Below are positions 6,437-41,321 of a DNA stretch of 64,000 bases, piece after piece. Position 1 is the stretch's first letter; every line of letters begins with the position of its first letter. Position numbers and translations under genes: made by a program. This DNA comes from Planoprotostelium fungivorum (taxonomy: Eukaryota > Evosea > Variosea > Cavosteliida > Cavosteliaceae), in contig MDYQ01000441.1 of assembly GCA_003024175.1 (NCBI GenBank), positions 62,001 to 126,000 on the forward strand, written 5' to 3'. Below the pieces are notes generated by a model, which saw nothing but the letters and a program-made list of their open reading frames with translations, ran no database searches and was not told the DNA's origin.

Positions 6437-8334
6437 TTACAGGGTCTTTCTTCTCCAAACAGATGGGTCAGGAGAGGTAGACAAGAACTGGTTCTCACGG
6501 TCGTCACTGTCCAAGTCAGTCCATCAGCCATCATCGCATCGAGGTGTAACGATCGACGAGATGACGTGACTCACAAGAAGTAGTTCTCCCATCTGTGCTG
6601 CTGAGTGGCGTCAGTCAACACGAGCTGTCCGCTGTTGGTGATGTCCAATCGATAAGGCGCCTTGCCGAGACCTTGTGTCATGACAGTGGACCATTGAACG
6701 TTTCCTTTTCCATCGACGTTGTTCACTTGTCCGTCGGACATCAACTGTTTCGCAGTCAGCCAGAGATTCTTCCCGGAAATTGGCGGGAAATTTTTGGCGG
6801 GAACCGACCTTGAGGGTGTACGGACGAACGTCTCTCTGCTGAGCTCCAGCGTACCACAGAACGCTACCGTCCGTCTGATTGGCAATGATGAGACTTCCAG
6901 TGCTGTATTCGAGATAGGCCTCGTACTGGCAGTTGGGGGAGATGATCGAAGCTCTACAACGAGTCAGATGTGAGATGCTAAAGACATCTCACCCTCCATC
7001 GACCAAGAAGGAGGAAGACTTGTCGCTGCTGATGCGTGAACCGAAGCTCTGAGGGTTCAATTGAGCGTTGGTGCACTTCTTCTCGGCGGGAGCGGCTCTG
7101 GCCTGCCATAGAATCAGCTTCGACCATCATCTACAACGATGTAGATGACCCACGGTGTAGTTGTTGGGGTTCGTGCTGACGAAGATGTCGTTCTGTGCTC
7201 CCTCTCTCCATCCATAGAGGATACTGTAAGTGGGTGCCCTGTTTCCTTCTTCTGGCATGTTGGCTGTCCTCTCGTCAGTCACAATCTCTCTGTGTGTATC
7301 TCACGGTTCTCGTTCTTCCAGTACATTGGGTTGCGAGGGCCCATCGTGCAAGTTGTGGGATCGTAACACTTGCGAGGTGCTTGAGCGTGGGTGACGTCCA
7401 CAGCTGTGGCATCACTTCTGACGTTGGTGACAGTGCAGACGAAGGGTGTCATGTACTGTGAGGGTGAGTGGGGGGAAGAAATGGCGGGAACGGCCTACCA
7501 TCTGGTCGGAACCTCCGGCAGATTTGTGGATCCAGAACCAAGAGCACATGCACTGGTGGAGAGTTAGTTCTCCACCGCTCGATGATATGATGGAGGTCAC
7601 ACCTTTCCGTTGGGGCAGGCGGGCAGATTGGGGACGCTGAATGTCTGGTTCTGACGAGCGATACAGTCGTGGACGACAGAGAAGATAACGAAATCGGAGG
7701 GCTTGACCTGAGACGATCATCAGGAGACGTGTCATTTCGAATGAGGTGGTGGTCACCTGATTGGCATCCGATTTGTAGGCGATACCGAAAGCGCACCCGG
7801 CGACATCTTCGCGGTTGACGGCGTGGATGTCTAAGAGGATGAGTCGATCGTGTGGAAGATGAACTCACTGGACCAAGCGTTACCAGTCCAGGGAACGGGA
7901 GTGTTGGGCTGTTTCGAGTCAGTCGGATTAAGATGAGATGGGATTACTTGATTCATTCCTCTGTAACCTCCAGCGGCAGGGGAGGTGAAGGCCTTGTTGG
8001 ATGAGATCTCTGCGACGGCCTGTCCGTTAGCGGGGAGTTTGAAAGCTTGTCCATCAGCGGGAGGGCAGTTCTACAGATCACCACCATCAGACAGAATCTC
8101 TTAGCGTGTGAAACGTGCTCACCAAGTTTCCGTGCCACCACCATTGAGAGAAAGACAGCTCCTGAAGGGGCTGAGAGTTCGCATCTGAATTACCGTTGGC
8201 TCTGTCACAATCGAATGTGGAAGGATGCCTAATCCATCCTATCAGATCTCGCATCCATTCGTCTTCACTTACCACATGGAACAGTGAGAGAGGGCCGAAG
8301 CCACGAGCACTAAGAGGACAAGAGCGCGTTGCAT
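6437..8334 (-). CDS. Secreted AA14-like LPMO with bulb-type lectin domain, paralogue A
   Basis: Start ATG 8334 gives a signal peptide (MQRALVLLVLVASALS) with predicted cleavage just before HCSMWHPSTFDCDR, so the mature protein would begin with His, the hallmark of copper LPMOs (histidine brace). Further on come FSQWWWHGN (candidate second His), GCAFGIAYKSD, FVIFSVVHDC, LPACPNGKCMCSWFWIH, CTMGPRNPMYW and LYGWREGAQNDIF, an order I associate with the AA14 LPMO family. The last third reads like a bulb-type mannose-binding lectin: ISPNCQYEAYL, VLWYAG, DGQVNNVDGKGNVQWST. A short last exon encodes DDRENQFLSTSPDPSVW, ending at TAA 6437. Function, inferred: oxidative cleavage of polysaccharide outside the cell or in a phagosome, with the lectin part as targeting module. 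Many short introns, positions shared with paralogues B-D. Confidence 0.7.
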
Positions 8335-9192
8335 GTCGGTCGGCCGTGGAAGAATGGTCCCTCACAACACAAACCACTTCGTCACGTTGCGTCAATACAG
8401 CGGGACTACCTCAATGAGAAGAGAATCACTGCAGGGCAGATTCCTCATAGGTCGTCCTTCAACGCCACCTCTCGCGAAATTCTGACGGATGAGCTGAGTT
8501 GACTGCCAACAAGCGGCTGCGGAAGGAAGGTGACTCAGATTAAGAGGTTGAAGCAGGTGATTGAAGATTGGTGCGGCTGAAGAGCGAATGGCTGCCTTCT
8601 TTTAACGTGGTAAACGACCAAGAAGTTCCTTCACATGCTGTTGAATGAAGTTCACGATTCGAATACGCTTTTCAGAGACAACACCACTGTTTGCCCGTGT
8701 CGTGATCACAAAAGTTCTCAGAAGAAAAGATGAAGAAGATTCAACAGATCGATCCCAAATCGATGACAATATCGTTCTGACATATAATCAGTCGTTGTAG
8801 ATGGATACGTGGAAACTCAAGGAATACCCGGTGGGACGGCTCTTGGCGGCTTTGAGGAGATTGACTAGGGCGCGTTGTAGATCGGACAGAACCACGAGAA
8901 GTAACCGTTACAAGTGCCTCCAGTGTGACGGACAACCTTTCAGCTAGGGCTCTCATCTGGTTCAGGTCCTCCGCAATTGGACAATTGATTCGGTTTTTCC
9001 GGTTGGTAGTCAAATGGTGCATTGAGAATGGATCACTTCTCTCCCGACTACTGGAATATGCACGACGAAAAAATTAGTGATCCAAATGCATGTCCACCAA
9101 CCAGAAAAACCAAATCAATTGTTCAAGACCGACCGATCGACTGTGTGTTACAATAAAATGGTTTATTGTTGTGGCAGAACAAAGATCTCCCT
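8335..9192. other. Gap between LPMO paralogues A and B
   Basis: Upstream sequence of paralogue A and 3' flank of paralogue B. It holds the 140-bp miniature inverted-repeat element at 8982-9121 and two copies of the CGTTGTAGAT motif (near 8797 and 8870). No coding frame in it looks real. An AATAAA polyadenylation signal for paralogue B is seen on the minus strand near 9165. Confidence 0.5.
8982..9121. mobile_element. 140-bp MITE with terminal inverted repeats
   Basis: The element begins CAATTGATTCGGTTTTTCCG and ends in the near-perfect reverse complement, CAATTGATTTGGTTTTTCTG read from the other strand, an inverted repeat of about 26 bp with roughly three mismatches. The same internal sequence recurs at 29168-29308 and 31626-31750. 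It has no coding capacity. No target duplication is obvious. Confidence 0.8.
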
Positions 9193-11208
9193 TCAGGGTC
9201 TTCTTCTCCAGACTGCTGGGTCAGCAGAAGTAGACAAGAACTGGTTCTCACGGTCGTCACTGTCCAATGTCAGCCTCGTCCTCATCTTCTTCATTATCTC
9301 ATCATCATCATCGAGATGATCAGATCACAAGAGAGGAGAAGAAGAAAGCTCACAAGAAGAAGTTCTCCCATCTGTGCTGCTGAGTGGCGTCAGTCAGAAC
9401 GAGCTGACCACCATTGATGATATCCAAATGATAGGGACCCTTGCCGAGACCCTGAGTCATAGGTGTGGACCACTGGACTGTTCCATTCGAATCGTACGTG
9501 TTCACTTGTCCGTCTGCTAGCAACTGCAAGAAAATGAGCGGGAAATTCTTCCGAGAAATTTCTGGCGGGAACCCCACCTTGAGGGTGAGAGGGCGAGGTC
9601 CCCTCTGCTTGACGCCTCCATACCACAAGACTTGCTGGTCAGTTAGGTTCTTTACGATGAGGTTGCCCGTGTCACGCTGAAGATAAGCCACGTAGCGGCA
9701 GTTGGGAGATATGATCGCGTCTCTACCACGTGTCAATATGAAACCGTGAATAAAATGAAATCAATTGACGAATGAATGTTGTACCCTCCATCCACTAGGA
9801 AGGTGGCAGGCTTGTCACTGCTGATGCGAGATCCATATGCCTTGGGGTTGACGGTAGAGTTGGTACATTTTTTCTCGGTGGGGGCTGCTCTCGCCTACGA
9901 TCAAGTTGATATCGAGAGCCATCTACAACGATATAGATGACTCACCGTGTAGTTGTTGGGGTTCGTGTTCACAAAGATGTCCTTCTGTGCTCCTTCCTTC
10001 CATCCATAGAGGATGCTGTATGTAGGTGCTCTGTGTCCATCCTCAGGCATGTTGGCTGTCCTCTCGTCAGTCACAGTCTCCCTGTGTATCTCACGTCTCT
10101 CGTTCTTCCAGTACATTGGGTTGCGAGGGCCCATAGTGCAAGTTGTGGGATCGTAACACTTGCGAGGCGCTTGAGCGTGGGCGACGTCCACAGCCTTGGC
10201 ATTGCTTCTGACGTTGGTGACGTTACAGACGAAGGGTGTCATGTACTGGAAGGTGTGAGAGAGGTGAGGAGGAGATGGACATCTCACCATCTGATCGGAA
10301 CCACCGATGGACTTGTGAATCCAGAACCAAGAGCACATGCACTGGACGTGACGGTTAAGATGTGGGTCGAGGATGTGATGTGACGATGATGGAGACCATG
10401 TGATGATGGAAGACGGACGGAAGACGGACGGAAGATGTATGATGATGGGATAGTCTGTACCTTTCCGTTGGGGCATGCGGGAAGGTTAGGGATGTTAAAC
10501 GTTTGGTTCTGACGAGCAACACAATCGTGGACGACAGAGAAGATGACAAAGTCTTCGGGCTTGACCTGTGGGAAGAGGTTGAGAAGACAGATCATTTCAT
10601 TTCGAATCGTGATGGAAGGTGATCACCTGTCTGGGGTCCGACTTGTATGAGATGGCGAAAGCGCATCCTGCAACGTCTCCTCGAGCGGGGGCGTGAATAT
10701 CTTTTAAGAGGATGAGTCGATGAGCTGTCTCTCTGATACTCACTGGTCCAATCGTTTGTCCAGGGAACCGGAGTGTTGGGCTGACGTTCATCAGATGGAA
10801 ACATGCGATGCGATGAATCACCTGAATCATTCCCTTATGGCCACCATTGGCTTTGGAGGTGAAAGCCTTGTTCGTGGATAATTCGACGACGGCTTGTCCG
10901 TTGGCGGGGAGGTTGAATACTTGGCCTGCTGCGGGAGGGCAGTCCTGCGGACTACACTTCAGATCGCTGACTTCACATGCGAACATGTCACCAGATTATT
11001 GTGCCACCACCACTGAGAGAAGGGTAAGTCTTGAAGGGGCTGAGAATTACCGGCCGAATTGATCGAAGCTCTGTCACAATCGAACGTAGAAGGGTGCCTG
11101 CATGTCGCATCATTATCTATTCGACGTCGTCGTCTTCACTCACCACATGGAACAGTGGGAGAGTGCGGATGCCACGGCGACCAGAAGCAAGAGAGCACGT
11201 TGCATCAT
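9193..11208 (-). CDS. Secreted AA14-like LPMO with bulb-type lectin domain, paralogue B
   Basis: Start ATG 11208 (a second in-frame ATG follows at once). Signal peptide MMQRALLLLVAVASALS, then mature HCSMWHPSTFDCDRAS. Keeps FSQWWWHNN, CPPAAGQVFNLPANGQAVVE, GCAFAISYKSD, PACPNGKCMCSWFWIH, CTMGPRNPMYW and GWKEGAQKDIF. The lectin part shows ISPNCRYVAYLQRDTGNLI, VLWYGG and DGQVNTYDSNGTVQWST, the clearest bulb-lectin match of the four. The last exon encodes DDRENQFLSTSADPAVW, ending at TGA 9193. Its 3' exon, preceding intron and flank are almost identical to those of paralogue C, pointing to a recent duplication or gene conversion. It differs from A by N for G after WWWH and by an altered region around the first Trp/Asn loop (PWTNDWT). 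Confidence 0.7.
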
Positions 11209-11695
11209 GGTCAGTTGTTGAAAATGTGCGTTGTCAACCGAGCGGTTCGGTGTCGCAGGGTGTCATACTGCTGTTCGACATGCAGAAGAAGACAAAGAAT
11301 ACTCTTAAGTCGTTCCCGAGCGTCAGATCTCGTGGGCATTCGAACTTGAAGATGACCCGTGCTGCCCAAACGGTTGAGTCTCTCTTCTCTCATTGAGGCA
11401 CGGATTTCACAGGCTGGTGGGCTAGTACTGCAGATCAGACATTCAACGAAAACTTCTGATGGCTCCTTTGGAGAGCTTTCCATGTGTTCTTCTTCCTCTT
11501 GTCATACTGCGGACTGATCGACACTGGCAAGTCCAATCCCTGATTTTTCGTTACACGTGGGGTATTACTGTTCGTGATCATTCCTAAACGAAGGGGAACT
11601 TGATGTGCTCGAATCATCACAAGAGGCAGGATGCATCGATCGACTGTGTGGTACAATAAAATGGTTTATTGTTGTGGCAGAACAAAGATCTCCTT
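11209..11695. other. Gap between LPMO paralogues B and C
   Basis: Presumed promoter of paralogue B and 3' flank of paralogue C. I see no gene, RNA or element. The 3' flank with AATAAA on the minus strand near 11665 matches the flank of paralogue B. Confidence 0.4.
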
Positions 11696-13628
11696 TCAGG
11701 GTCTTCTTCTCCAGACTGCTGGGTCAGCAGAAGTAGACAAGAACTGGTTCTCACGGTCGTCACTGTCCAATGTCAGTCTCGTCATCATCATGATCATCAT
11801 CGAGAAGATCAGATCACAAGAGAGGAGAAGAAGAAAGCTCACAAGAAGAAGTTCTCCCATCTGTGCTGCTGAGTGGCGTCAGTCAGGACGAGCTGACCAC
11901 CGTTGGTGAGGTCCAAACGGTAGGGGCCCTTGCCGAGACCCTGAGTCATAGAAGTGGACCACTGGACCTTTCCGGCGGAATCATAGTTGTTCACTTGTCC
12001 GTCGGATAAAACCTAAAGCCATCTCAGCACACTTTTTGGCGGGAAAATCACCTTGAGGGTGTAAGGGCGGAGACCTCTCTGCTGAGCTCCTCCGAACCAC
12101 AGACAGTTGTTGTCCGTCTTGTTGATGACCATGAGACTTCCAGTGTTGTACTCTAAGAAGGCCTCGTACTTGCAGTTGGGTGAGACGAGCTTGGCACTAG
12201 GGTACGTGAGTCACGTGACTCTCGAAATCCAGATGAAATCTCACCCTCCGTCGACTAAGAAGGTGGCGGGCTTGTCGCTGCTGATGCGAGAACCGAAGCT
12301 CTGGGGGTTCAATTGAGAGTCAGTGCACTTCTTCTCGGCGGGAGCGGCTCTGGCCTATCACAGTATGAGTGAATGGTCCATCTACAACGATGTAGATGAC
12401 TCACCGTGTAGTTGTTGGGGTTCGTGTTCACAAAGATGTCCTTCTGTGCTCCTTCCTTCCATCCGTAGAGGATGCTGTACGTGGGTGCTCTGTGTCCATC
12501 CTCAGGCATGTTGGCTGTGTTCCCTCGTCAGTCACAGTCTCTCTGTGTGTCTCTCACGTCTCTCGTTCTTCCAGTACATAGGGTTGCGAGGACCCATCGT
12601 GCAAGTTGTGGGATCGTAGCACTTGCGAGGTGCCTGAGCGTGGGCGACGTCCACAGCCTTGGCGTCGCTTCTGACGTTGGTGACGGAGCAGACGAAGGGT
12701 GTCATGTACTGTGGGGGTGAGTGGGGGAGAAAATGGCGGGAACGGCCTACCATCTGGTCGGTACCTCCGATGGACTTGTGGATCCAGAACCAAGAGCACA
12801 TGCACTGGTGGAGAGTTAAGACGTGGGAGATCATGTGATGATGGGAGATCATGTGATTATGGACAAGGGATGCAAGATGATGAGAGTCTATACCTTTCCG
12901 TTGGGGCAGGCGGGAAGGTTGGGAATGCTGAATGTCTGGTTCTGACGAGCGATACAGTCGTGGACGACAGAGAAGATGACAAAGTCTTCGGGCTTGACCT
13001 GTGAGGAGATGTGAGGAGACAATTCATGCGTGTATGGAGCACACCTGCTTGGGGTCGGACTTGTATGCGATACCGAAGGCACATCCGGCGACGTCCTCAC
13101 GCTTGACGGCGTGGATGTCTAAAGAATGTAAGCCGATGCGATGTCATACGAACGAGATGAGAGTTGAAACTCACTGGACCAAGCGTTACCAGTCCAGGGA
13201 ACGGGAGTGTTGGGCTGTCCAGAATGAGATGGAGGAAACATGTCGACTCACCTGGTTCATTCCTCTGTAACCTCCATTCTCCTTGGAGGTGAAGGCCTTG
13301 TTGGAAGAGATCTCGACGACGGCCTTTCCGTTAGCGGGGAGTTTGAAGACGGCTCCCTCAGCGGGGGGGCAGTCCTTTGAAATTCTATCAGACATCCGAT
13401 TTGTCCCATCTTTCAATCACCATGTTTCCGTGCCACCACCATTGAGAGAAAGGATAGTCCTGAAGGGGCTGAGAGTTTCTATCGGAGTTACCGTTGGCTC
13501 TATCACAATCGAATGTGGAAGGATGCCTAGCCACATCAGATCTCCCACTCATCCTCTATATCTCACCAGAAGGAACAGTGGGCGAGGGCCGCGGCCACGA
13601 GAACCAAAAGCACGAGAGCGCGTTGCAT
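11696..13628 (-). CDS. Secreted AA14-like LPMO with bulb-type lectin domain, paralogue C
   Basis: Start ATG 13628, signal peptide MQRALVLLVLVAAALA, mature start HCSFWHPSTFDCDR. Conserved blocks are the same as in the sister genes: FSQWWWHGN, CPPAEGAVFKLPANG, AFTSKENGGYRGMNQ, PVPWTGNAWS, GCAFGIAYKSD, PACPNGKCMCSWFWIH, CTMGPRNPMYW and GWKEGAQKDIF, then a bulb-lectin-like region and the terminal exon DDRENQFLSTSADPAVW with TGA at 11696. Intron positions match those of A, B and D, while intron sequences differ. The copper-site residues inferred from AA14 (first His of the mature chain, His of WWWH) are both kept, so the protein looks active. Secretion and polysaccharide binding are inferred from the signal peptide and lectin part. 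Confidence 0.7.
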
Positions 13629-13896
13629 CTCTATCGGGCTTTGAAGAATGTTTTTCGGCCCAGACAGAGAAGACTTGTCAGTGTCAATAATTTCGCAGTA
13701 TGACAACAACAAGAAGAAGACATCGAAAGCTCTCCGCCCTCAAAGAACAATCACAGAGTTGCCAGCACCGCGAGCTGAAGTTTCGGGCCGTGTCCAGAAG
13801 TGCCACTCTCCGGTGCAAATTTGTAAGGAGCGACTGCAACCAATAGTTTAGACACAGTTATTCTGCTACAGGTTGGATCTATTGTGACCGGATTTT

Positions 13897-15811
13897 TCAG
13901 CGTCTTTTGTTCCATACGGCTGGATCAGGCGACGTGGATATGAATTTGTTCTCACGGTCGTCACTGTCTAAGTCAGTCTCCATCTTCGATCATCATCCTC
14001 TAAGACGATGGACATGATGAGCACTCACAAGAAGTAATTCTCCCATCGGTTCTGTTGAAGTGCGTCGGTCAATACGAGTTGACCTCCGTTGGTGATGTCC
14101 AAACGGTAAGGTCCTTGTCCCTTGCCTTTTGTCATCAACGTCGACCACTGGACCTTCCCGGCTGCATCATACGTGTTCACTTGTCCATCACCAAGCACCT
14201 GACAGAAGGTGAGTCATAAAAGATTTCCGAGACAATTCTGGCGGGAAACCTACCTTGAGGGTGTAAGGCCTTATGTTTCTCTCTTGTGTTGCTCCGAACC
14301 ACAGCGCATTGTTGTCTGTTCGATTGACTACCATCAAACTGCCAGAGGCATATTCCAAGAAAGCCACGTATTTACAGTTGGGAGAGAAGATGGACGCTCT
14401 ACAACGCGTCAGCTGTAGGATTCACATAGACATTTCACCCTCCGTCGATGAGAAGGTTGTTCGTGGAATCACTGCTGAGTCTGGATCCATAGCCGTTGGG
14501 GTTGGCTTGTCGGTCAGTGCATTTGTTCTCGGTGGGAGGTGTTCTGGGCTGCAACGGAGTCAATATGGAGAAAATCGATCTACAACGATGTAGATGACCC
14601 ACCGTGTAGTTGTTAGGGTTCGTGTTCACAAAGATGTCCTTCTGTGCTCCTTCCTTCCATCCGTAGAGGGTACTGTAAGTGGGTGCTCTTCCTCCCTGCT
14701 CGGGCATGTTGTCTGTATACGTCAGGCTAACAATTTCGGTCTGTTGTTTCTGCATACCTCGGTCGTTCTTCCAGTACATAGGGTTGCGAGGGCCCATCGT
14801 GCAAGTTGTGGGATCGTAGCACTTGCGAGGTGCTTGAGCGCGGGCAACGTCGACAGCTGTGGCGTCACTTCTGACGTTGGTGACAGTGCAGACGAAGGGT
14901 GTCATGTACTGTGAGGGTGAGTGGGGGAAGAAATGGCGGGAACGGCCTACCATCTGGTCGGTACCTCCGATGGACTTGTGGATCCAGAACCACGCACACA
15001 TGCACTGATCAACATTCAGACATCCAAATACACCAATCGTTGTAGATGGATCGGATTGTTGGAAGACGATGAGAGTCTATACCTTTCCGTTGGGGCAGGC
15101 GGGAAGGTTAGGGATGCTGAACGTCTGGTTCTGACGAGCGATACAGTCGTGGACGACAGAGAAGATGACAAAGTCCTCTGGAACGACCTGCGATGATCAT
15201 CAGAAAATGGCTCGTCTCAGAGATGATCTTCACATTTCTGGCTACCGACTTGTATGCGATTCCGAAAGCGCAACCGGCAACGTCTTCACGGTTGACGGCA
15301 TGAATGTCTATAAAGATGAGTCGATGTGGATGATGCGATACGGGGACTCACTTGACCAATCATTTCCAGTCCATGGAACAGGAGTGTTGGGCTATTGGAG
15401 TCAGACCGTTCAGATGATACGACGCGACTCACCTGATTCATTCCTCTATAACCTCCGTTCTCTGTAGACGTGAAAGCCTTATTGGACGAGATTTCGACTA
15501 CAGCTCGTCCATTCGCAGGCAGCTTGAAAGTTTGTCCTTCTGCGGGAGGGCATGCCTAATCGATGCATCAGATGTCTGATTTCCAAAAGATGGCATACCA
15601 AGTTTCCGTGCCACCACCACTGAGAGAACGTGTAGTCTTGAAGAGGCTGAGAGTTTGCATCAGAGTTACCGTTGGCTCTGTCACAGTCAAAGGTGGAAGG
15701 GTGCCTGTCACTTGCATGAGCTCGACATCACGCTCTTCATCTACGTCACCAGAGGGAACAGTGAGCGAAGCTCGTGGCCACGAGAGCGATGAGAAGGAGA
15801 GCACGTTGCAT
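13897..15811 (-). CDS. Secreted AA14-like LPMO with bulb-type lectin domain, paralogue D
   Basis: Start ATG 15811, signal peptide MQRALLLIALVATSFA, mature start HCSLWHPSTFDCDR. Keeps FSQWWWHGN, CPPAEGQTFKLPANGRAVVE, PVPWTGNDWS, PACPNGKCMC (then AWFWIH where the others have SWFWIH), CTMGPRNPMYW and GWKEGAQKDIF. It is the most diverged copy. The linker after GAQKDIF differs (PRTPPTENKCTDRQANPN), the lectin part has altered residues, and the last exon reads DDRENKFISTSPDPAVWNK, ending at TGA 13897. It is the promoter-distal, possibly oldest member of the array. Same strand and same intron layout as A-C. Confidence 0.7.
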
Positions 15812-17527: not shown

Positions 17528-20116
17528 TCAGCAGAAACAAACGAGGACCATGACGACCACAGAGAGGACTGACGCCTTAACCACACAGCTATCACTCGAG
17601 ATGTTGTTTGTGTGTATCACAGAAGTGTCTGTGAAAGACACAGAGGCAGACGTCGTAGCAGTGGCGTCTGGACTGGATGAGTTCGTGACATCGTCACCCT
17701 CCTTGGAAGACACGAGAGAGGATGTCGTGGAAGAGTGGACAGGTGAAGAGTTGGAGCTGGTAGATTGTACGGTAATCGTGGAGGTGCTAGAGCTGACAGT
17801 GGAGGTAGAGGGTGAATCGGTCGATGACTCGCTAGTGGACTCTTCAGAACTAGTGTCAGAGCCGCTTGATTCAGTGAAAGATGTAGAGCTGGTAGAGGTG
17901 TCGTAGCTGACGCTCGGCCTATCACCTGACGTTTCGTCACGCCGAAATCTTCACACGATGACTCACTGGTGCCCAAGTTGGTCGTCACCTGTCCTTCTCC
18001 CCTCACCATCACGATGAACTGAGATAGCGGGGAAGTGTTGGCCAGCAGGTAATTGCTCGTGGATGCAAAGGGGATGGTGTACACTGTTCTCTTCCACATT
18101 AATATTTCCCAAGCCACGGCGAGTGTGAGACTGGCAGCCGATCCAGTGACATTGACGGAGACGATGCCAGCGGGGGCTGTGAAGGGAGGATACTGAAGGA
18201 TGAGGAGACCGTTCACGTCGTAGGTCTGTCCGTACACTCCTTGTCCGCTGATGGAAACTGTCATTGTATCAGTGAATCGAGTGTGATGAAATCACTTACC
18301 GAGAGTGAAATGGATCGTCATCGGCTGCATTCCGTTTAATTTCACGCTCATGATGTCTGCGGAGCAAGTGAGAGTGAACAGATTCGTGTTCTCGTCTTCG
18401 TAGAAGAAAGTCGCGGAATTGGTCGAATTCAGTTGGACATTGTTGGACGCGTCGCTGGGAATGCCATCGCTTCTGATGCAGTATCCCGGTGGTGGCTGGA
18501 TGATGAAGGCACTGTTGATGGCAGGAACGTCAAAAGTAGAGTTATCACTGACCGTGTAGCACACTGACGTCACGTCAGCTGAAATGCAGAAGGTGTTGTG
18601 GCTCACGATCGAAGGCGCCACGACTGATGGAGCCGAAATAGTTGAAAGAGGTTTCCGTGGAGCTATGAGACCATCAGAGAGATGGTAGACTTGGATCTTC
18701 TCACCAGCTCTGCCCTCCGTACAGTTTCAGTGGATCGTCGCTGGACTGATCCGAGATGATGCCAGCGGGAACGTCGATTTGATAAAATCCCGTTGGAAAA
18801 TCGACTGATTGTACTTGTGCATTAAGGCTGATGGGTGTGTCTATATGATGTGAGATGATGCAATCAGAGATGATGCACGGTGTAATGATGCATCGTGCGA
18901 CGATGGATATCTCACAGGGTCCGTTGACTTGGATGGACAGATCGATGCTGCTTTCGGTTCCACAGTTGAATATGGCATCGAACGGTGCGAGTTGAGATTT
19001 GATCGTTTTACCGTTGATGATACCTCCCGTCGATGTGACTTCATCGTTGACCAGCTTGACGAGAGCGTAGCTCGAAGAAGAGTTGCCGTACGTCTGACAA
19101 GCGGCAGTGTAATTACCCGACGTAGAGGCGTTCAGTGTGGCAGGGGTTGCAGCGGAGATAACTGTTGCAATGTATGCACCTTGTACGATTTCAAAGAAGG
19201 AATGGCAGGAACGAGCGGGTAAAAGCTGAAACGTGGTCAATACGCGACTATTCGATGTGTCCTCACTTTGTAATCAATTGCTTCAAATTGATCCACGAGC
19301 ACGATGGCATCTTGTGAAGAGCAGATGAAGACGGAGCCGTAGTATGTGTCCCCTTCGTACACGAAGGAGGAGGACAAGACGAAATAAGACACTTGCACAG
19401 AATACGTGTGAGGGAATGTTGTGGCGTACAGCGGATACACTGACGTGAAAGTAAGTTTAACTTAATTTCCATACTCGAATGTTCACCGGAACCCGTGGTG
19501 GTTAACGTGACGTTGGCTTCGACGAATATGCTGCCACTGAAGCCCACCGGATTGGATAAATAGTTGAGGGAGTCCGAAGTAGAGAGAGAATAGATGTAGG
19601 GAACATCCGATGAAAAGTTGTAGCTGGTGTCGTTCTCGGAGGTGTAGGTCTGTCCAAGAGTGATCTGAACGATATCTGCTTTCGTTAATTTGTCAAAGGT
19701 GGATGATGACGTGAGAAGAAATAAAATCAAATGTGTTCACCGAATTGGATCACAGTGAGATTGATTGAGGTAGGAGCGAAGTCCTCATTATCGAGAGTGC
19801 CCATGATCACTTGATAGGAGGAACAGGTGTCGACCGAGTCGAATCCCAGTTCTCCATTTACAAATTGTCCATCGCATAAGGCTGTGTAGAAGTTTGGGCC
19901 ATATGATTCCTCAATCAAGGTTAGAAAGACGGCGGGTGGGTTTGCCTCATAGATGCGGGAGAAATAACCGGTGGTCGGGATGGTCGTCACAGACGTCTCA
20001 TAGACCTGAGAAAAATGAGGCAAAGATGACGGAGAAGATGAGGTGATGGAGGTAGGCTCACAGTGGCTTGAGAGAGAGCGATACAGAGAAGCAAGAGAGA
20101 AAGAGTGCCTCTCATC
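17528..20116 (-). CDS. Ser/Thr-rich cell-surface protein, likely GPI-anchored
   Basis: Start ATG 20116 gives a signal peptide (MRGTLSLLLLCIALSQA). About eight exons follow, encoding a beta-rich, cysteine-poor ectodomain with many Asn-X-Ser/Thr sites (NLTV, NDTS, NVTL, NYTA, NVTG) and two similar segments built on DVPAGIISD and TAPAGIVSV, which may be related modules. Next comes a Ser/Thr stalk of about 90 residues (SSSTSTITVQSTSSNSS) and a hydrophobic C-terminal tail (VVKASVLSVVVMVLVCFC) ending at TGA 17528 with no cytoplasmic part, the layout of a GPI-anchored adhesin or coat protein. One exon join near 18660 could not be phased cleanly by eye. The family is not recognised; CUB-like folds are possible. 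Confidence 0.65.
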
Positions 20117-21525
20117 TTGTTGATACCGATAGAAAATGAACGGAAGAGAATCCAATCGGAGCGTCAGTGCAATGGGACGAAAAGTGCGACGACAAATGGG
20201 AACAGAATCAGAAGGTGAAGGGATGCTGCAGACAAATGCTCCCTGCCGCACAGCGATTTTCCAGAGTCCTCCCGTGCGGAGTATCAGAGGAACAGTGTGT
20301 AGGCCATTTCCTTTGGCTAAAGTGGTGATTTCACCTTCATCATCACGATCCGATCACCATCGACAGCTGTGAACACTGTCTGTGGAAGATTATTCAACAA
20401 CTGTTGGTCGAGCGGCACCACCGCTTCATCAACCAGATCTTTCTGAAAGGAGGTCGAACGATCGATTCCAATGACGATGTTTCTGTGAGACGATATCTCT
20501 CGATCAGCCTGTCCCCAACATCACGGGAAGAATTTTCACTGCGACTCACGGTGGTGATGTTGATCACAAAGAACACCGTCGTATCCATCGCATCCGTTCA
20601 ACATTCGTCCACTCTGTTGGAAGAGAAGATTTTATCTTCAGCCCTCCGAAGGGATGCAAAGGAGTGGCCATTTACCTAGTCGGAGACTCGTCGATCTCGT
20701 CTCAAGCGATGTACATATGATGAACCACTCGGCCACGGTGAGTCACATACACGAAGAGAGTAGATCTGTACCGAATGTCTATTGACGACTGTGCAGGATC
20801 GTAGGAGGGTTGTACGTGGATGGTAACGTCGACACGCTGTCGATCACCAGTGGAAATGTCACACAATTTCGTCGTCCGATCGTCTGGATGAGGAGACGAA
20901 GACTTCCTAATTGGGTGACAACGATGCCTAAAGAGGCTCCTAGGGTATGCCAGATAGAACCCCCTACACGGTGACATGCAATCGAATCATTCAAAAAAAT
21001 ACGAGAATCGTCTCACAAGGCCAATCTTTGTCTTCATCACCGCGCACGTGTTGTACTGTACAGTGTCTCTCGAAAGCACCTCTGAAAGATATTCTATCTT
21101 CATTGCACCCCTGATATCTAAATAAAATGATTTTCGTGAGATTCATCTTCTGTAACCATTGTAGATGAATGATTACGTAATCGCGAAATGGACAGCAACA
21201 GATGCAAGACACATCAGATGGCATTCTACCTTTGTTTTCATCCGCTCTTGTTGTATTATCTCTATATGACCCAAGCATGCTCATCTTATTAGAAGAGGCG
21301 ATTTGATGTCACCTCCTCATCAATCTGACACCAATAGGTATGCACCACGTTAAGAGATAAGGCGAAGGGTCTATATTTCGAGTCAGCTATGTATTATTAT
21401 CCTCCAATGAGAAGACTGAGGAACATTGTTGGGTAATCTTTTACAATGGATCCTCTGAATGATCTCTTAGAATCGATTGGAGGTCTTTCATCACTCAGAA
21501 GCTCAAATTTAATTCTCATCGAGTG
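20117..21525. other. 1.4-kb gap with the second copy of a dispersed repeat
   Basis: Presumed promoter of the surface-protein gene, then a repeat copy at 20962-21123. A minus-strand frame at 20779-20994 (LGIVVTQLGSLRLLIQTIG) is hydrophobic but has no clear start or end, so no gene is called. Confidence 0.4.
20962..21123. repeat. Dispersed repeat, right copy
   Basis: Direct repeat of 16178-16342 (see that entry). Both copies contain the short palindrome TGTACTGTACA and the block TGTCTCTCGAAAGCACCTCT. Confidence 0.85.
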
Positions 21526-29819: not shown

Positions 29820-31268
29820 CAACACGGCGTGGTTTCGAGCAGTTCTGATGTTACTAGGTGAGATGTCGCCGTGGACGACGCCGAGACTGTTTGCACTCTG
29901 GATCTGCCGGTGGAGTTCCGCCGCCCACCCGCCCAACCATTCTGCCGGTGAATTTGTTTGCCATCTTGAGCGGATCAAAATTCCGAGCGGCAGCGATCGG
30001 AAGTTCTCCCAGGGGCCGCTTGCGAGAAGTTACACCCCGCCGGCAAGCTGTAGTTTCCGTAGGGCTTCGATCTCTCTCTGGTAGTTGCCGAGGCGTTCGT
30101 TCGAGAAGAGTTTGACGACAAAGTCTTCACCGTCGTTGTTGTTACCCGCCGAGATGATGTGCGACTGGCTGCCGACTCCCTCTCTGAGGATCTGAATGGT
30201 GCACTCTATCTGGGACTTTTTGCCATCGTGAATCGCGTCCCCGTTGCTGCTCGTTGTAGATCTTGATTCCCGGTACTTTGGAACAGAGGTGGCGGTCGTC
30301 CGAGCTTGTCAGAACCCGAACGAAAGAGGTTGATGAGTGCCTTCCCTCCCTCCGCCCAGCCGCCCGCTGCATCGAGCATGGTCATCGGCTTTGTTCTCCA
30401 AAAAATGACGTTGTCATCTGTCTTCTCTGCACGGCAGATGATGACGTGCCTTGTGTCAGCCAGGAATCCGAACGTCTTCCGTCTCCGCGGTTGGTTATTG
30501 AATATGGCTTGAAGTCGAGTGACGAGCTGACACAGTCCCTTGGTGGTCTTCTTGCCGTCCAGTTCGTTCTTGAATTCGCCGGTCACTTCATGGTCGCACC
30601 ACCTGGTTGATCGCCCCTCAGATTCGGTGACGGTAACATCTGGGAGCTGGACGGGTTCTGAAGGATAGCCATTTTGATGGGTGTCGTGGGCTTGGAGCGA
30701 TTCGGGTAGGATTCCGGCAGTCAGGGCGAAGAGAGATGCTTGTATTTTGGGGAACTCCGGCGTATCGGGTGATAGCTGCTTGAACTTGTCGGGACGAGGA
30801 ACTGAATTGGAGCAGGTTGGAATGTCGCCGAGAACCTTGTCCGAATCCACCGCTCCCTCGGGGAATGCATTCGAAACGACGTAAGCTGCAGAAATTCCGG
30901 TCAAATTGCTGGACTGCAGCTGAATTTGAAGTATCCGAAGCTGACGTGCGAGGGATTCCACTTGAGTTTTGAGCGCAGCATGTGCTTCTATCAGTGAAAC
31001 CAAAGATAGGTCGGCGGTCACGATTGGAATCGCTTTGCAAACACTGCGTGAGAACTCGAGAAATCTACTCATCGGCTGGGGCGCCTTGGTTGGGATGTTG
31101 TACAGGCCCCTTTGCCTTCACGGCATCGATAAACTCCTCATCAGATAATGTGAGCCAGAAGTCTAACTCTCCTTCTTGAGTAGCCGTATTATATATCCAT
31201 GTACCAGTGGCTGTCTTCGCCGGTCCGCTGACTTGTGTTATTAGACGTCGAACATCAGCGGCGTCCAC
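29820..31268 (-). CDS. FunK1-like protein kinase carried by the element, integrity unclear
   Basis: Read on the minus strand. The 5' part encodes FWLTLSDEEFIDAVKAKGP. The middle contains LPDVTVTES, HEVTGEFKN, AIFNNQPRRRKTFGFLADTR and VIFWRTKPM, the pattern of the fungal-type FunK1 kinase family, also seen on Crinkler-type effector proteins. The 3' part keeps kinase landmarks: GSQSHIISAG, FVVKLFSNE with the ATP-binding Lys, and VVHGDISPSNI followed by VLIDW in place of the usual HRD/DFG motifs. The parts do not lie in one frame; short introns may account for some of this, and I cannot say whether the gene is whole. It has no transposase features. It is probably cargo of the inverted-repeat element. 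Confidence 0.5.
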
Positions 31269-33979: not shown

Positions 33980-35401
33980 TTATTCCACGTACTTGTCTCC
34001 ACACGCGAGTCTTTCAAACAGCAGATTGTGGTCTCCTGCTGATAGATCCACACGAGAATCAGCCAAGAGCAGCTTCACTATGTCTCCATACCCCTCCTGA
34101 CATGCAATTCTGATGGCCTCGTTGTTCTCTGCTGATGGATCCACACGAGAGTCAGCTAAGAGCAGCTTCACTATGTCGGTATATCCATGCAGGCATGCGT
34201 CTCTGATGGCCTCATTGTCCTGTGCCGATGGATCCATACGAGAGTCAGCTAAGAGGAGTTCCACTACGTCGAGTCTCCCTCTTTCACATGCAATTCGGAT
34301 GGCTTCGTTGTCTTCTGCTGATGGATCCACACGAGAATCAGCCAAGAGCAGCTTCACTATGTCTCCACACCCCTCCTGACATGCAATTCTGATTGCCTCA
34401 TTGTTCTGTGCCGACGGATCCACACGAGGATTGGCCAAGAGCAGCTTCACTATGTCTCCATACCCCTCCTGACATGCAATTCTGATGGCCCGATTGTACT
34501 CTGCCGATGGATCCACACGAGAGTCAGCTAAGAGCAGCTTCACTATGTCGGTATATCCATGCAGGCATGCGTCTCTGATGGCCTTGTTGTTCTGTGCCGA
34601 TGGATCCACACGAGAGTCAGCTAAGAGGAGTTCCACTATGTCGGTACATCCATGCAGGCATGCGTCTCTGATGGCCTCGTTGTTCTGTGCCGATGGATCC
34701 ACACGAGAGTCAGCTAAGAGGAGTTCCACTATGTTGGGTCTCTCTCTTTCACATGCAATTCGGATGGCTTCGTTGTCTTCTGCTGATGGATCCACACAAG
34801 GATCGGCCAAGAGCATTTGTAAGATGAGTGTGGCTTGCTCTGATATCTCACGTCTTGGAGACAGATCGATACAAGCGTTTCGGATGACTTTGTTGTTGTT
34901 TGCCGACACATCCATCTTTGGATGATCGAGTAGCATCTTCACGATCTCGAGTTTTGACTGCTTGATGGCCGTTAAGATGGACCAGTTGTCGTCAGCCGAA
35001 GGGTCCAGATGTGGATGAGACAAGAGAGCTTGGAATGTGTCTCTCGTGAGTGAATCATGGTGAATGTGTTTGTAGTTCTGCAGTAGTTTGAGGGGGTTTC
35101 CTTTTAACTGGACGGGTAGGTTGACGAGATATCGAACTGACTCGACATGTCCATGGTCCACGGCCAACACTAAGTCTCGGTAGGAGAGTACATCAGTGAA
35201 GGAGTCCACTAAAAGCTTCAGAAGATGAAGAAAGAGGTGTCGCTTACCGATCTCCTTCCACAGCTGACATGTGCTACGAAGAACGACAAACTGACTCCTT
35301 CTCACTCTTCTTGCTTTCGGTCTGCAGTGCTCCTGTCTCGGGAGGATCATTCTCAAGATCCGCCGCGTGACATCGTGACTGGAGAGTATTCCATTGCTCA
35401 T
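33980..35401 (-). CDS. Intronless ankyrin-repeat protein, possible F-box N-terminus
   Basis: One uninterrupted frame from ATG 35401 to TAG 33980, about 473 residues. The first 60 residues (SSHDVTRRILRMILPRQ, then RRSQFVVLRSTCQLWKEIGK) have an F-box-like look. The rest is ankyrin repeats; the last nine or so units are nearly identical 33-residue copies of the form VDPSAxxNEAIRxACxxGxxDIVELLLADSR. At the DNA level these are 99-bp tandem repeats from about 34020 to 34830. Such proteins usually bind partner proteins, and with an F-box would present them for ubiquitination; that is inferred. Lack of introns in an intron-rich region and near-identical repeats suggest recent expansion or arrival by retrocopy or transfer. 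Relatives occur as debris at 33.7 kb and 60.6-61.2 kb. Confidence 0.85.
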   Translation of the reverse strand: MSNGILSSHDVTRRILRMILPRQEHCRPKARRVRRSQFVVLRSTCQLWKEIGKRHLFLHLLKLLVDSFTDVLSYRDLVLAVDHGHVESVRYLVNLPVQLKGNPLKLLQNYKHIHHDSLTRDTFQALLSHPHLDPSADDNWSILTAIKQSKLEIVKMLLDHPKMDVSANNNKVIRNACIDLSPRREISEQATLILQMLLADPCVDPSAEDNEAIRIACERERPNIVELLLADSRVDPSAQNNEAIRDACLHGCTDIVELLLADSRVDPSAQNNKAIRDACLHGYTDIVKLLLADSRVDPSAEYNRAIRIACQEGYGDIVKLLLANPRVDPSAQNNEAIRIACQEGCGDIVKLLLADSRVDPSAEDNEAIRIACERGRLDVVELLLADSRMDPSAQDNEAIRDACLHGYTDIVKLLLADSRVDPSAENNEAIRIACQEGYGDIVKLLLADSRVDLSAGDHNLLFERLACGDKYVE

Positions 35402-35552
35402 CGTGTTGAGATCTTCTATCCTTCCTATGAATACAATTCTCGTTTGAAACCGATGCGGTTGTGTCAAATTCTCATTTTATTTCTTTCAGCGAAAACGACC
35501 GTCTCATCACCTTTTGATCACACACTTTCAAGAACGCAACACGAACATCATC

Positions 35553-39723: not shown

Positions 39724-39900
39724 AAGCATTCATTTGTTCTATGATAACGAAACAATGTAGACATTCTGTGACACCGCAGCAGGTGAGCAGATTCCGAAGA
39801 GGCCAGCATCGCTCAGTCTTCACTCATGTGAGTACTACACCCTCTGCGTTTCAAGATCTCCCAACCTAACTTCACATCAGTTCCATCGTTTCACATCGCA

Positions 39901-41321
39901 ATGGCAGGAAGAGTCGTACGTTCATCGAAGTTCCGTCACGTCTTCGGACAACCATTCAAGAAGGAGAACTGCTATGACGAGCTGAAGGTCACTCGCACAG
40001 CATGGGATTCCAACTACGTCGCAGCCAACCCTCTGTTCTTCGCCGTCCTGTGGGAGGCAGGAGGTGGTGGTTCTTTCGCCGTGTACCCTTGGTCCGCTCC
40101 CGCTGGAAAGATCGACCCCAAGCTTCCTCTCGTCGCTGGCCACAAGTCCGCCGTTTTGGACATTGATTTCCATCCCTTCAACGACAACCTCATTGCCTCC
40201 GTCTCTGAGGATTGCACCGCCAAGATCTGGCACATTCCCTCCACCGGATTGACCTCCACCCTCACCGAGCCCGTCCAGACTCTGAACGGCCACAAGAGAA
40301 AGGTCGGAACCGTAAAGTTCAACCCCATCGCCGACAACCTTGTCGCCACATCTTCTGGAGACTTCTCCGTCAAGATCTGGGATATCGAAAAGGGACAGGC
40401 TAAGCTCTCTGTCGATGGACAGCACTCTGACCTCATCCTCTCCGTTGACTGGAACTTCAACGGATCTCTCTTGGCTACCTCTTCCAAGGACAAGAAGGTC
40501 AGACTCGTCGACCCCAGATCCAACTTGGTCGCTCAGGTGCGTACATCTTCATCTCCTCCATGCATCAATTACAAATCGTCATGGGGATTCACATTGTATA
40601 GGAAGCCGAGGCCCATTTGGGTATCAAGCCCTCTCGTCTCGTCTGGTTGGGCCAGAAGGAGAAGCTCTTCACCTGCGGATCCACCAAGACATCCGAGAGA
40701 GAGTACTGCCTGTGGGACCCCCGTGACTTCTCCAAGCCACTCAGCAGAACCTCCGTCGACTCTGCCTCTGGAGTCCTCATGCCATTCTACGATAATGATA
40801 CCTCCGTCCTCTTTTTGGGAGGAAAGGGAGACGGTAACATCCGTTACTTTGAAGTCACCGACGAGGCCCCTTACATCTTCCCTCTGTCCGAGTTCAAGTC
40901 CAACAACCCACAGAGAGGTCTGGCCCTCATGCCAAAGAGAACCGTCAACGTCTCAGAGTGCGAGATCGTCCGTATCCTCAAGCTCGGAGTCAAGACTCTC
41001 GAGCCCATCTCCTTCTTGGTGCCCCGTAAGAGCGACATCTTCCAAGATGACCTCTACCCCGATGCCCCATCTGGCGAGCCCTCTCTCACCGGTGACGAGT
41101 GGCTGTCTGGAAAGAACGCCAACCCCAAGACGGCCTCCATGCAAGGAGGTTTCGTCCAGAAGGAGAGAGCTGCCCCCGTCTTTGACAAGCAGGAGGAGAC
41201 CAAGCCAAAGAGCGAGAAGGAGCTGCAGGCCGAGATCGAGCAGTTGACCAAGAGAGTCGCCTACCTCGAGAGCGAGCTCGTCAAGAAGGACTCGAAGATC
41301 AAGGAGCTGGGAGGCAACTAA
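39901..41321 (+). CDS. corA: Coronin
   Basis: Two exons, 39901-40536 and 40602-41321, split by one 65 nt intron. The protein starts MAGRVVRSSKFRHVFGQPFK, then WDSNYVAANPLFFAVLWEAG, GGGSFAV, HKSAVLDIDFHPFNDNLIAS, the WD40 beta-propeller (SVSEDCTAKIW, TSSGDFSVKIWD), DSASGVLMPFYDNDTSVLF, GKGDGNIRYFEVTDEAPYI, VPRKSDIFQDDLYPD, and a C-terminal coiled coil (EIEQLTKRVAYLESELVKKD). It binds F-actin and regulates actin turnover in motility, cytokinesis and phagocytosis. The match to Dictyostelium coronin runs the full length. Codon third positions are strongly C-rich, fitting high expression. The symbol corA follows Dictyostelium usage. Confidence 0.97.

Follow-up and report, generated by a model that had tools for sequence, protein, structure and literature searches.

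Lytic polysaccharide monooxygenases (LPMOs) of family AA14 have been described from fungi, where they are active on xylan, cellulose and xyloglucan (PMC10885436, PMC7419196) and often have a tail that is unassigned and for the most part disordered (PMC10885436, PMC8615602, PMC7419196). The copper brace of these enzymes is made of His1, a second histidine and a tyrosine (PMC10885436). An unassigned C-terminal region is found in 72% of AA14 sequences and a disordered one in 57% (PMC8615602), and no member in fungal genomes carries the carbohydrate-binding module (CBM) CBM1 (PMC10885436). One further paper mentions AA14 once, in relation to glycosylphosphatidylinositol anchors (PMC10154629). Here, we describe four genes, g1 to g4, arranged head to tail along the minus strand of a 64-kb stretch of DNA from the protist Planoprotostelium fungivorum (contig MDYQ01000441.1, called C415 below, positions 62001-126000; the window). 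They probably encode secreted AA14-type LPMOs with a C-terminal CBM resembling the bulb-type lectins, within an expanded AA14 set.

PcAA14B shares with the g1-g4 proteins the catalytic domain with its His1, second His and axial Tyr, as well as the WW[WF]H and GAQxDIF blocks; it differs by its fungal host and by the absence of a lectin tail from the matched 292-residue chain. PcAA14A and PcAA14B carry a disordered C-terminal region (PMC10885436), whereas the tail of g1-g4 is lectin-like. TrAA14A of Talaromyces rugulosus is likewise an AA14 enzyme with the conserved His/His/Tyr brace, but it is cellulolytic and hemicellulolytic, has no disordered extension, and no lectin tail is mentioned in the available part of the text (PMC10885436). 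The tails themselves resemble, by sequence profile, pyocins L1 and L2 and the lectins of garlic and other monocot bulbs (E 8e-12 to 1e-6); unlike these proteins, they are fused to an LPMO and all four lack the strict mannose motif. A fungus-attacking microbe with tandem-expanded LPMO genes is known in the mycoparasitic oomycete Pythium oligandrum, but its arrays belong to family AA9, and the PAN domains described there reside on CBEL proteins and not on the LPMOs (PMC7720654). Within the open-access literature, subscription papers, sequence databases and the original AA14 paper aside, the accessible texts contain no report of an AA14 fused to either a bulb-type lectin or a PAN domain. The initial annotation of this DNA knew of no AA14-B-lectin fusion. 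The same literature gave nothing relevant, by title and abstract, on AA14 and amoebae and, for LPMOs and PAN domains, only AA9 beside separate CBEL proteins; two papers on protostelid feeding (PMC7251208, PMC11237637) mention neither polysaccharide monooxygenase, AA14, chitinase nor glucanase. Relative to the literature searched, both the combination of AA14 with lectin or PAN modules and the expansion of AA14 are new.

The gene array and its catalytic domain

The array extends from the g4 stop codon at 6437 to the g1 ATG at 15811. The gene models were predicted from the sequence by hand reading and with a spliced-alignment script that accepts GT-AG introns only. All four genes are intact, with a single, terminal stop in each coding sequence:

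13897..15811, minus strand: g1, 13 exons, 438 amino acids (signal peptide, AA14 domain, lectin-like tail)
11696..13628, minus strand: g2, 13 exons, 438 amino acids
9193..11205, minus strand: g3, 13 exons, 437 amino acids
6437..8334, minus strand: g4, 13 exons, 439 amino acids
15764..15811 (g1), 13581-13628 (g2), 11158-11205 (g3), 8287-8334 (g4), minus strand: predicted signal peptide, 16 amino acids, His1 being the next codon (codons checked)

Each gene is interrupted by 12 GT-AG introns of 37-119 bases, whose phases are common to the four (2,0,0,1,0,0,0,1,0,2,0,2). In length, exons 2-12 do not differ between g1, g2 and g4; exon 4 of g3 is shorter by one codon. In all four cases the signal peptide has a hydrophobic core (mean Kyte-Doolittle value 2.5-3.1) and small residues at -3/-1, and the mature protein is predicted to begin with His (HCSLW, HCSFW, HCSMW and HCSMW). 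Four sequence blocks are present in every protein: WWWH, CMC[S/A]WFWIH, GAQ[K/N]DIF and DGQVNxxDxxGxVQWST. The initial annotation had claimed four tandem genes between these very limits, with kept intron positions, a signal peptide ending before His, and the same blocks (in the forms WWWH, CMCSWFWIH-type, GAQxDIF and DGxVNxxDxxGxVQWST). The spliced models bear it out on each of these points, the predicted cleavage site also by alignment to residue 1 of the structure 5no7.

Its assignment of the proteins to AA14 is upheld as well: judged by profile and alignment, g1-g4 belong to this LPMO family. The spliced proteins score 234-244 bits with Pfam LPMO_AA14, against a cut-off of 27 (E 3.3e-69, 2.9e-72, 1.8e-70 and 6.6e-70 for g1 to g4). 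When g1 was used to search the PDB, the sole strong match was 5no7 (E 1.4e-47), whose chain starts at the predicted mature His1; the second-ranked match was a mannose-recognizing lectin (E 0.017). The search result names 5no7 only as an LPMO, and we take it to be PcAA14B of Pycnoporus coccineus. The four AA14 domains are 38-40% identical to it over 252-253 positions, and the residues opposite its brace (His1, His99 and Tyr176) are His, His and Tyr in the four genes. In the mature numbering of g2, the predicted copper ligands are His1, His97 and Tyr173. The corresponding features are:

14603..15763 (g1), 12405-13580 (g2), 9946-11157 (g3), 7154-8286 (g4), minus strand: AA14 catalytic part, His1 to the end of exon 9 (Pfam, alignment to 5no7)
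15300..15302 (g1), 13111-13113 (g2), 10693-10695 (g3), 7823-7825 (g4), minus strand: codon of the predicted second brace His, in NIHA, aligned to 5no7 His99 (codons checked)
14906..14908 (g1), 12706-12708 (g2), 10243-10245 (g3), 7453-7455 (g4), minus strand: codon of the predicted axial Tyr, in DQMY, aligned to 5no7 Tyr176 (codons checked)

The histidine of the WWWH block had been proposed as a brace ligand. Although it is unvarying in a seven-row alignment, it stands opposite His40 of 5no7, and the partner of His99 is the histidine of NIHA. By this alignment the WWWH assignment is wrong, and the residue is rejected as a copper ligand.

The C-terminal tail

The end of the catalytic domain and the start of the tail are joined in g1 within one open frame that runs across intron 9. 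The tail is encoded by the last four exons:

13897..14548 (g1), 11696-12354 (g2), 9193-9894 (g3), 6437-7102 (g4), minus strand: lectin-like tail, exons 10-13 (profile of 11 tails, hhalign)

Individually, the tails match Pfam B_lectin (PF01453) below its cut-off, with E values of 0.055, 0.0073, 2.1e-4 and 0.0011 for g1 to g4. These single-protein matches are weak (E 2e-4 to 0.055), and the homology to lectins is significant only by way of a family profile. Such a profile, built from 11 AA14 tails including those of g1-g4, retrieves pyocin L1 from the PDB with an E value of 7.9e-12 and garlic lectins at about 1e-6. Twenty-seven of the 28 PDB sequences found at E <= 0.1 are lectins or their relatives: lectins proper, lectin-like bacteriocins, curculin/neoculin, storage and antifungal proteins, S-receptor kinases and 4oit, which is titled a lectin. 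Those not named as lectins (curculin/neoculin, storage and antifungal proteins) share the fold of the bulb-type lectins. The remaining sequence is a secreted esterase, which is also matched by the profile of five non-AA14 lectin modules described below. Considered one by one, 9 of the 11 reach E <= 0.1 with B_lectin (best E 3.5e-6), and the highest score shown for any AA14 tail is 27.6 bits.

The same module exists apart from AA14. Searching the genome with the Pfam B_lectin profile gave no match, nor did it match any positive control; the g2 tail as query found 34 stretches at E <= 0.01, among which six places are without AA14:

C226:26829-27173: lectin module (g2-tail search), downstream of a subtilase-family match
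C77:23565-23948: lectin module (g2-tail search), downstream of RicinB_lectin_2
C109:180097-180441: lectin module (g2-tail search), downstream of CAP and PAN_4
C394:55253-55537: lectin module (g2-tail search), downstream of a Ser/Thr-rich frame
C198:9617-9964: lectin module (g2-tail search), downstream of a rhamnosidase match below cut-off
C166:4017-4283: lectin module (g2-tail search); its upstream partner, outside the scan, looks like that of C77

None of these modules alone passes the B_lectin cut-off (best 27.4 bits). Together, however, five of them form a profile that matches lectin-like bacteriocins in the PDB with an E value of 1e-25 and plant lectins from 1e-21 on, and hhalign aligns this profile with that of the 11 tails at a probability of 99.2% (E 1.7e-19). 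The two groups also differ in the strict mannose-site motif of bulb-type lectins, which we take to be QxDxNxVxY. It is present in all five non-AA14 modules scanned and, in the form QxDxNx[VIL]xY, in 2 of the 13 AA14 tails scanned, in register in C134a and, by eye, out of register in C445a (C61a, C262a and C394 were left out of the scan). By its sequence profiles, then, the tail is related by descent to the superfamily of bulb-type lectins, or beta-prism II proteins; judged by cut-off and motif, it lies outside Pfam B_lectin and is not a canonical mannose binder. The B-lectin domain of the initial annotation thus survives as homology at the superfamily level, not as a Pfam family member with a mannose site.

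An expanded AA14 family

The array had been presented as a group of four. The tandem copies are real, but they do not stand alone: they are part of an expanded AA14 set of about 23 loci with several types of tail. The AA14 profile matches 52 stretches of the 36.9-Mb assembly (471 contigs), which were grouped as 19 loci on 13 contigs in addition to the four on C415, that is, 23 loci on 14 contigs. Lectin-like tails are found at 15 loci (g1-g4, C445a, C90a, C452a-c, C216b, C134a, C30a, C61a, C62a and C262a) and PAN-type tails at six (C207a, with two PANs, C203a and C427a-d). Two of the latter were run against Pfam; C207a exceeds the cut-offs of both PAN_1 and PAN_4, C427a that of PAN_1 alone. 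At C207a (C207:3037-3687, minus strand) a single open frame holds the end of the AA14 domain and the beginning of the first PAN, the second PAN coming next; this fusion is thus independent of any guess at splicing. At C362a (C362:148824-149069, minus strand) the tail after AA14 is rich in Ser/Thr and has a hydrophobic end, resembling surface-anchored proteins; no PAN motif is present, which rules out its inclusion among the PAN-type loci. Downstream of C216a, neither a lectin tail nor a tail of any other kind was found.

The family size is better given as about 21-23 loci: C30a and C61a, whose DNA is 96% identical across 2.1 kb, could be allelic, and C262a is possibly a pseudogene. The latter has no believable N-terminus, models being forced there, and was excluded from the tree; the gene models of C216b and C203a start without Met. 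In a tree of 22 AA14 domains and 5no7, the loci cluster by tail type, with 6 label changes, the minimum possible, against a mean of 14.1 after shuffling; in this count C362a was mislabelled as PAN, near-copies make clustering easier, and 12 of the 20 inner branches are not starred. The equivalent of His99 is present at all 23 loci and that of His1 at 22 of 22, C262a excluded. The equivalent of Tyr176 is present at 19 of the 23; Phe replaces this axial Tyr at the other four (C30a, C61a, C62a and C262a).

History of the copies

The four proteins are 75-84% identical in pairwise comparisons, and their synonymous divergence (dS) of 0.46-0.99 rules out a recent identical duplication. By simple count, the nonsynonymous to synonymous ratio (omega) is 0.14-0.21 over the whole gene for the six pairs and 0.13-0.27 for the tail alone. 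Since it is low in both, purifying selection probably acts on the AA14 part and on the tail. Like the AA14 profile scores, this ratio sets the array apart from a chance resemblance. The divergence is uneven along the genes. The copies of intron 7 in g1, g2 and g4 share 91-98% identity, reaching 98% for g1/g4, versus 45-78% for the remaining introns of that pair; DNA identity is 100% for exon 13 between g2 and g3 and for exon 4 between g2 and g4. The remaining introns show 31 to 90% identity between copies, mostly 45-80%. Such patches of 91-100% identity beside diverged introns fit an old tandem duplication with gene conversion, which we infer to be the origin of the four copies.

Proposed function and alternative explanations

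Secretion, copper activity and glycan binding are what these sequences lead us to expect of the g1-g4 proteins. Signal peptidase would cleave before His1, and one copper would then be held by the amine and side chain of His1, by His97 and by the axial Tyr173. This site would break glycosidic bonds of a solid polysaccharide oxidatively, the lectin-like tail keeping the enzyme attached to the surface of the glycan, in the manner of the CBMs of other LPMOs. The copies would have arisen by tandem duplication and patchy sequence exchange and have been kept by purifying selection. As to the substrate, we infer a role in digesting the walls of food organisms; matches to GH18, the chitinase family, are plentiful in the genome (33 stretches). 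Only tentatively do we go further and suggest that a fungus-eating protist has turned AA14, in the literature searched a wood-decay enzyme of fungi, into a modular oxidative arsenal against prey walls. Some 23 copies, in which one copper catalytic domain is paired with lectin-like, PAN or anchored tails, would then be directed at fungal chitin, glucan or mannan and not at xylan, with tails that choose the surface.

Several observations weigh against secreted LPMOs with a lectin-like module. Xylan and cellulose are the substrates of the AA14 enzymes published so far, and profile searches of this genome, run exon by exon so that split genes can be missed, gave no match to GH10 or LPMO_10, nor to AA9, for which there was no positive control. 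No window tail reaches the B_lectin cut-off of 32.4 bits, the top one scoring 22.2, and the strict mannose motif occurs in none of the four; because that site is missing, mannose binding by the tail should not be assumed. PQQ_2 weakly matches 2 of the 11 tails, with an E value of 4.5e-5 on that of C445a. Two AlphaFold models of the C62a tail, a related single-exon tail from outside the window, are of low confidence (pLDDT 57.1 from a sparse alignment and 65.4 from a deeper one) and have nine and ten strands. With the second model Foldseek found nothing at E <= 0.001, its best match (E 2e-3) being a beta-propeller, followed by an S-receptor kinase; among the 50 matches listed, S-receptor kinase, neoculin, and mycobacterial and garlic lectins are intermixed with beta-propellers. 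The PQQ_2 matches and the propellers of the Foldseek list would suit a tail that is another beta-rich fold, such as a set of PQQ or propeller blades, and not a lectin. Yet the 11-tail profile retrieves almost only bulb-type lectins, B_lectin itself is detected at E <= 0.1 in most tails, and hhalign ties the tails to modules that match lectin-like bacteriocins and plant lectins very strongly. We therefore regard a propeller as very improbable. Still less credible is fungal contamination of the assembly. In its favour, AA14 is known from fungi in the literature searched, and a Pkinase_fungal match lies at 30209-31117 of the window, but the 23 loci are spread over 14 contigs, that of the window included, and identity to a basidiomycete AA14 is at most about 40%. 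The lack of a Chitin_synth_2 match in the exon-by-exon search and the small number of Zn_clus stretches (only 7, though these too could be counted for a fungus) argue against a fungal host, and judged by such profiles the genome is apparently non-fungal; coronin and ankyrin genes occur on the same contig, which alone would not exclude a fungus.

Two other explanations accept the enzymes as LPMOs and change their target. Instead of food, they might act on the extracellular wall of the organism itself (a cyst, stalk or spore coat) and remodel it; the initial annotation had suggested such a role for the cyst wall, beside the digestion of fungal or plant cell walls by an amoeba. A recruitment of this kind, for the remodelling of endogenous chitin, has been proposed for AA15 LPMOs in early arthropods (PMC5823890), and the C362a tail resembles those of surface-anchored proteins. 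However, neither plant-type cellulose synthase (PF03552) nor Chitin_synth_2 was matched in the exon-by-exon search, which covered these two synthase families, and lectin modules also adjoin what looks like a peptidase, as well as a CAP protein, an arrangement that would fit a general secretome better than an own wall. We consider this role rather unlikely. Similarly doubtful is the idea of LPMOs for plant biomass that attack xylan-coated cellulose, like the fungal AA14s, with the tail a mere spacer. The activities reported for fungal AA14s on xylan, cellulose and xyloglucan (PMC10885436, PMC7419196) and the 38-40% identity to PcAA14B speak for it. Identity near 40%, on the other hand, says little on substrate, GH18 matches abound, and GH10, LPMO_10 and AA9 (the last with the limit given above), the families searched for here, are unmatched.

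If secreted AA14 LPMOs with lectin-like modules are indeed encoded here, an apparently non-fungal set of about 23 AA14 loci, most of them with lectin-like or PAN modules, would extend the family to new hosts, to new modular forms and probably to new substrates. The series of tails would offer a natural test set for the influence of a binding module on an LPMO, and the exchange of Tyr for Phe at four loci a natural active-site variant. The set would also be relevant to the ways in which predatory protists may get through the walls of fungi.

Other features of the window and genome context

Among viral and prokaryotic contigs, 33 and 35 candidate AA14 stretches, respectively, were found, none of which was confirmed as a relative. 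Upstream of g1, four long open frames at 17620-20353 (minus strand) have no Pfam match at E <= 0.01; they may be parts of a protein that is secreted or lies at the surface. The Pkinase_fungal match mentioned above, in the open reading frame at 30209-31117, scores 25.0 bits, slightly above the cut-off of 24.1. A coronin gene occupies 39832-41318 (plus strand), its first open reading frame matching coronin-1C with an E value of 2e-69. It is probably split by an intron, since it spreads over at least two overlapping frames. Finally, a 498-residue open frame at 33983-35476 (minus strand) contains ankyrin repeats, many of them near-identical and with the sequence DSRVDPSA.

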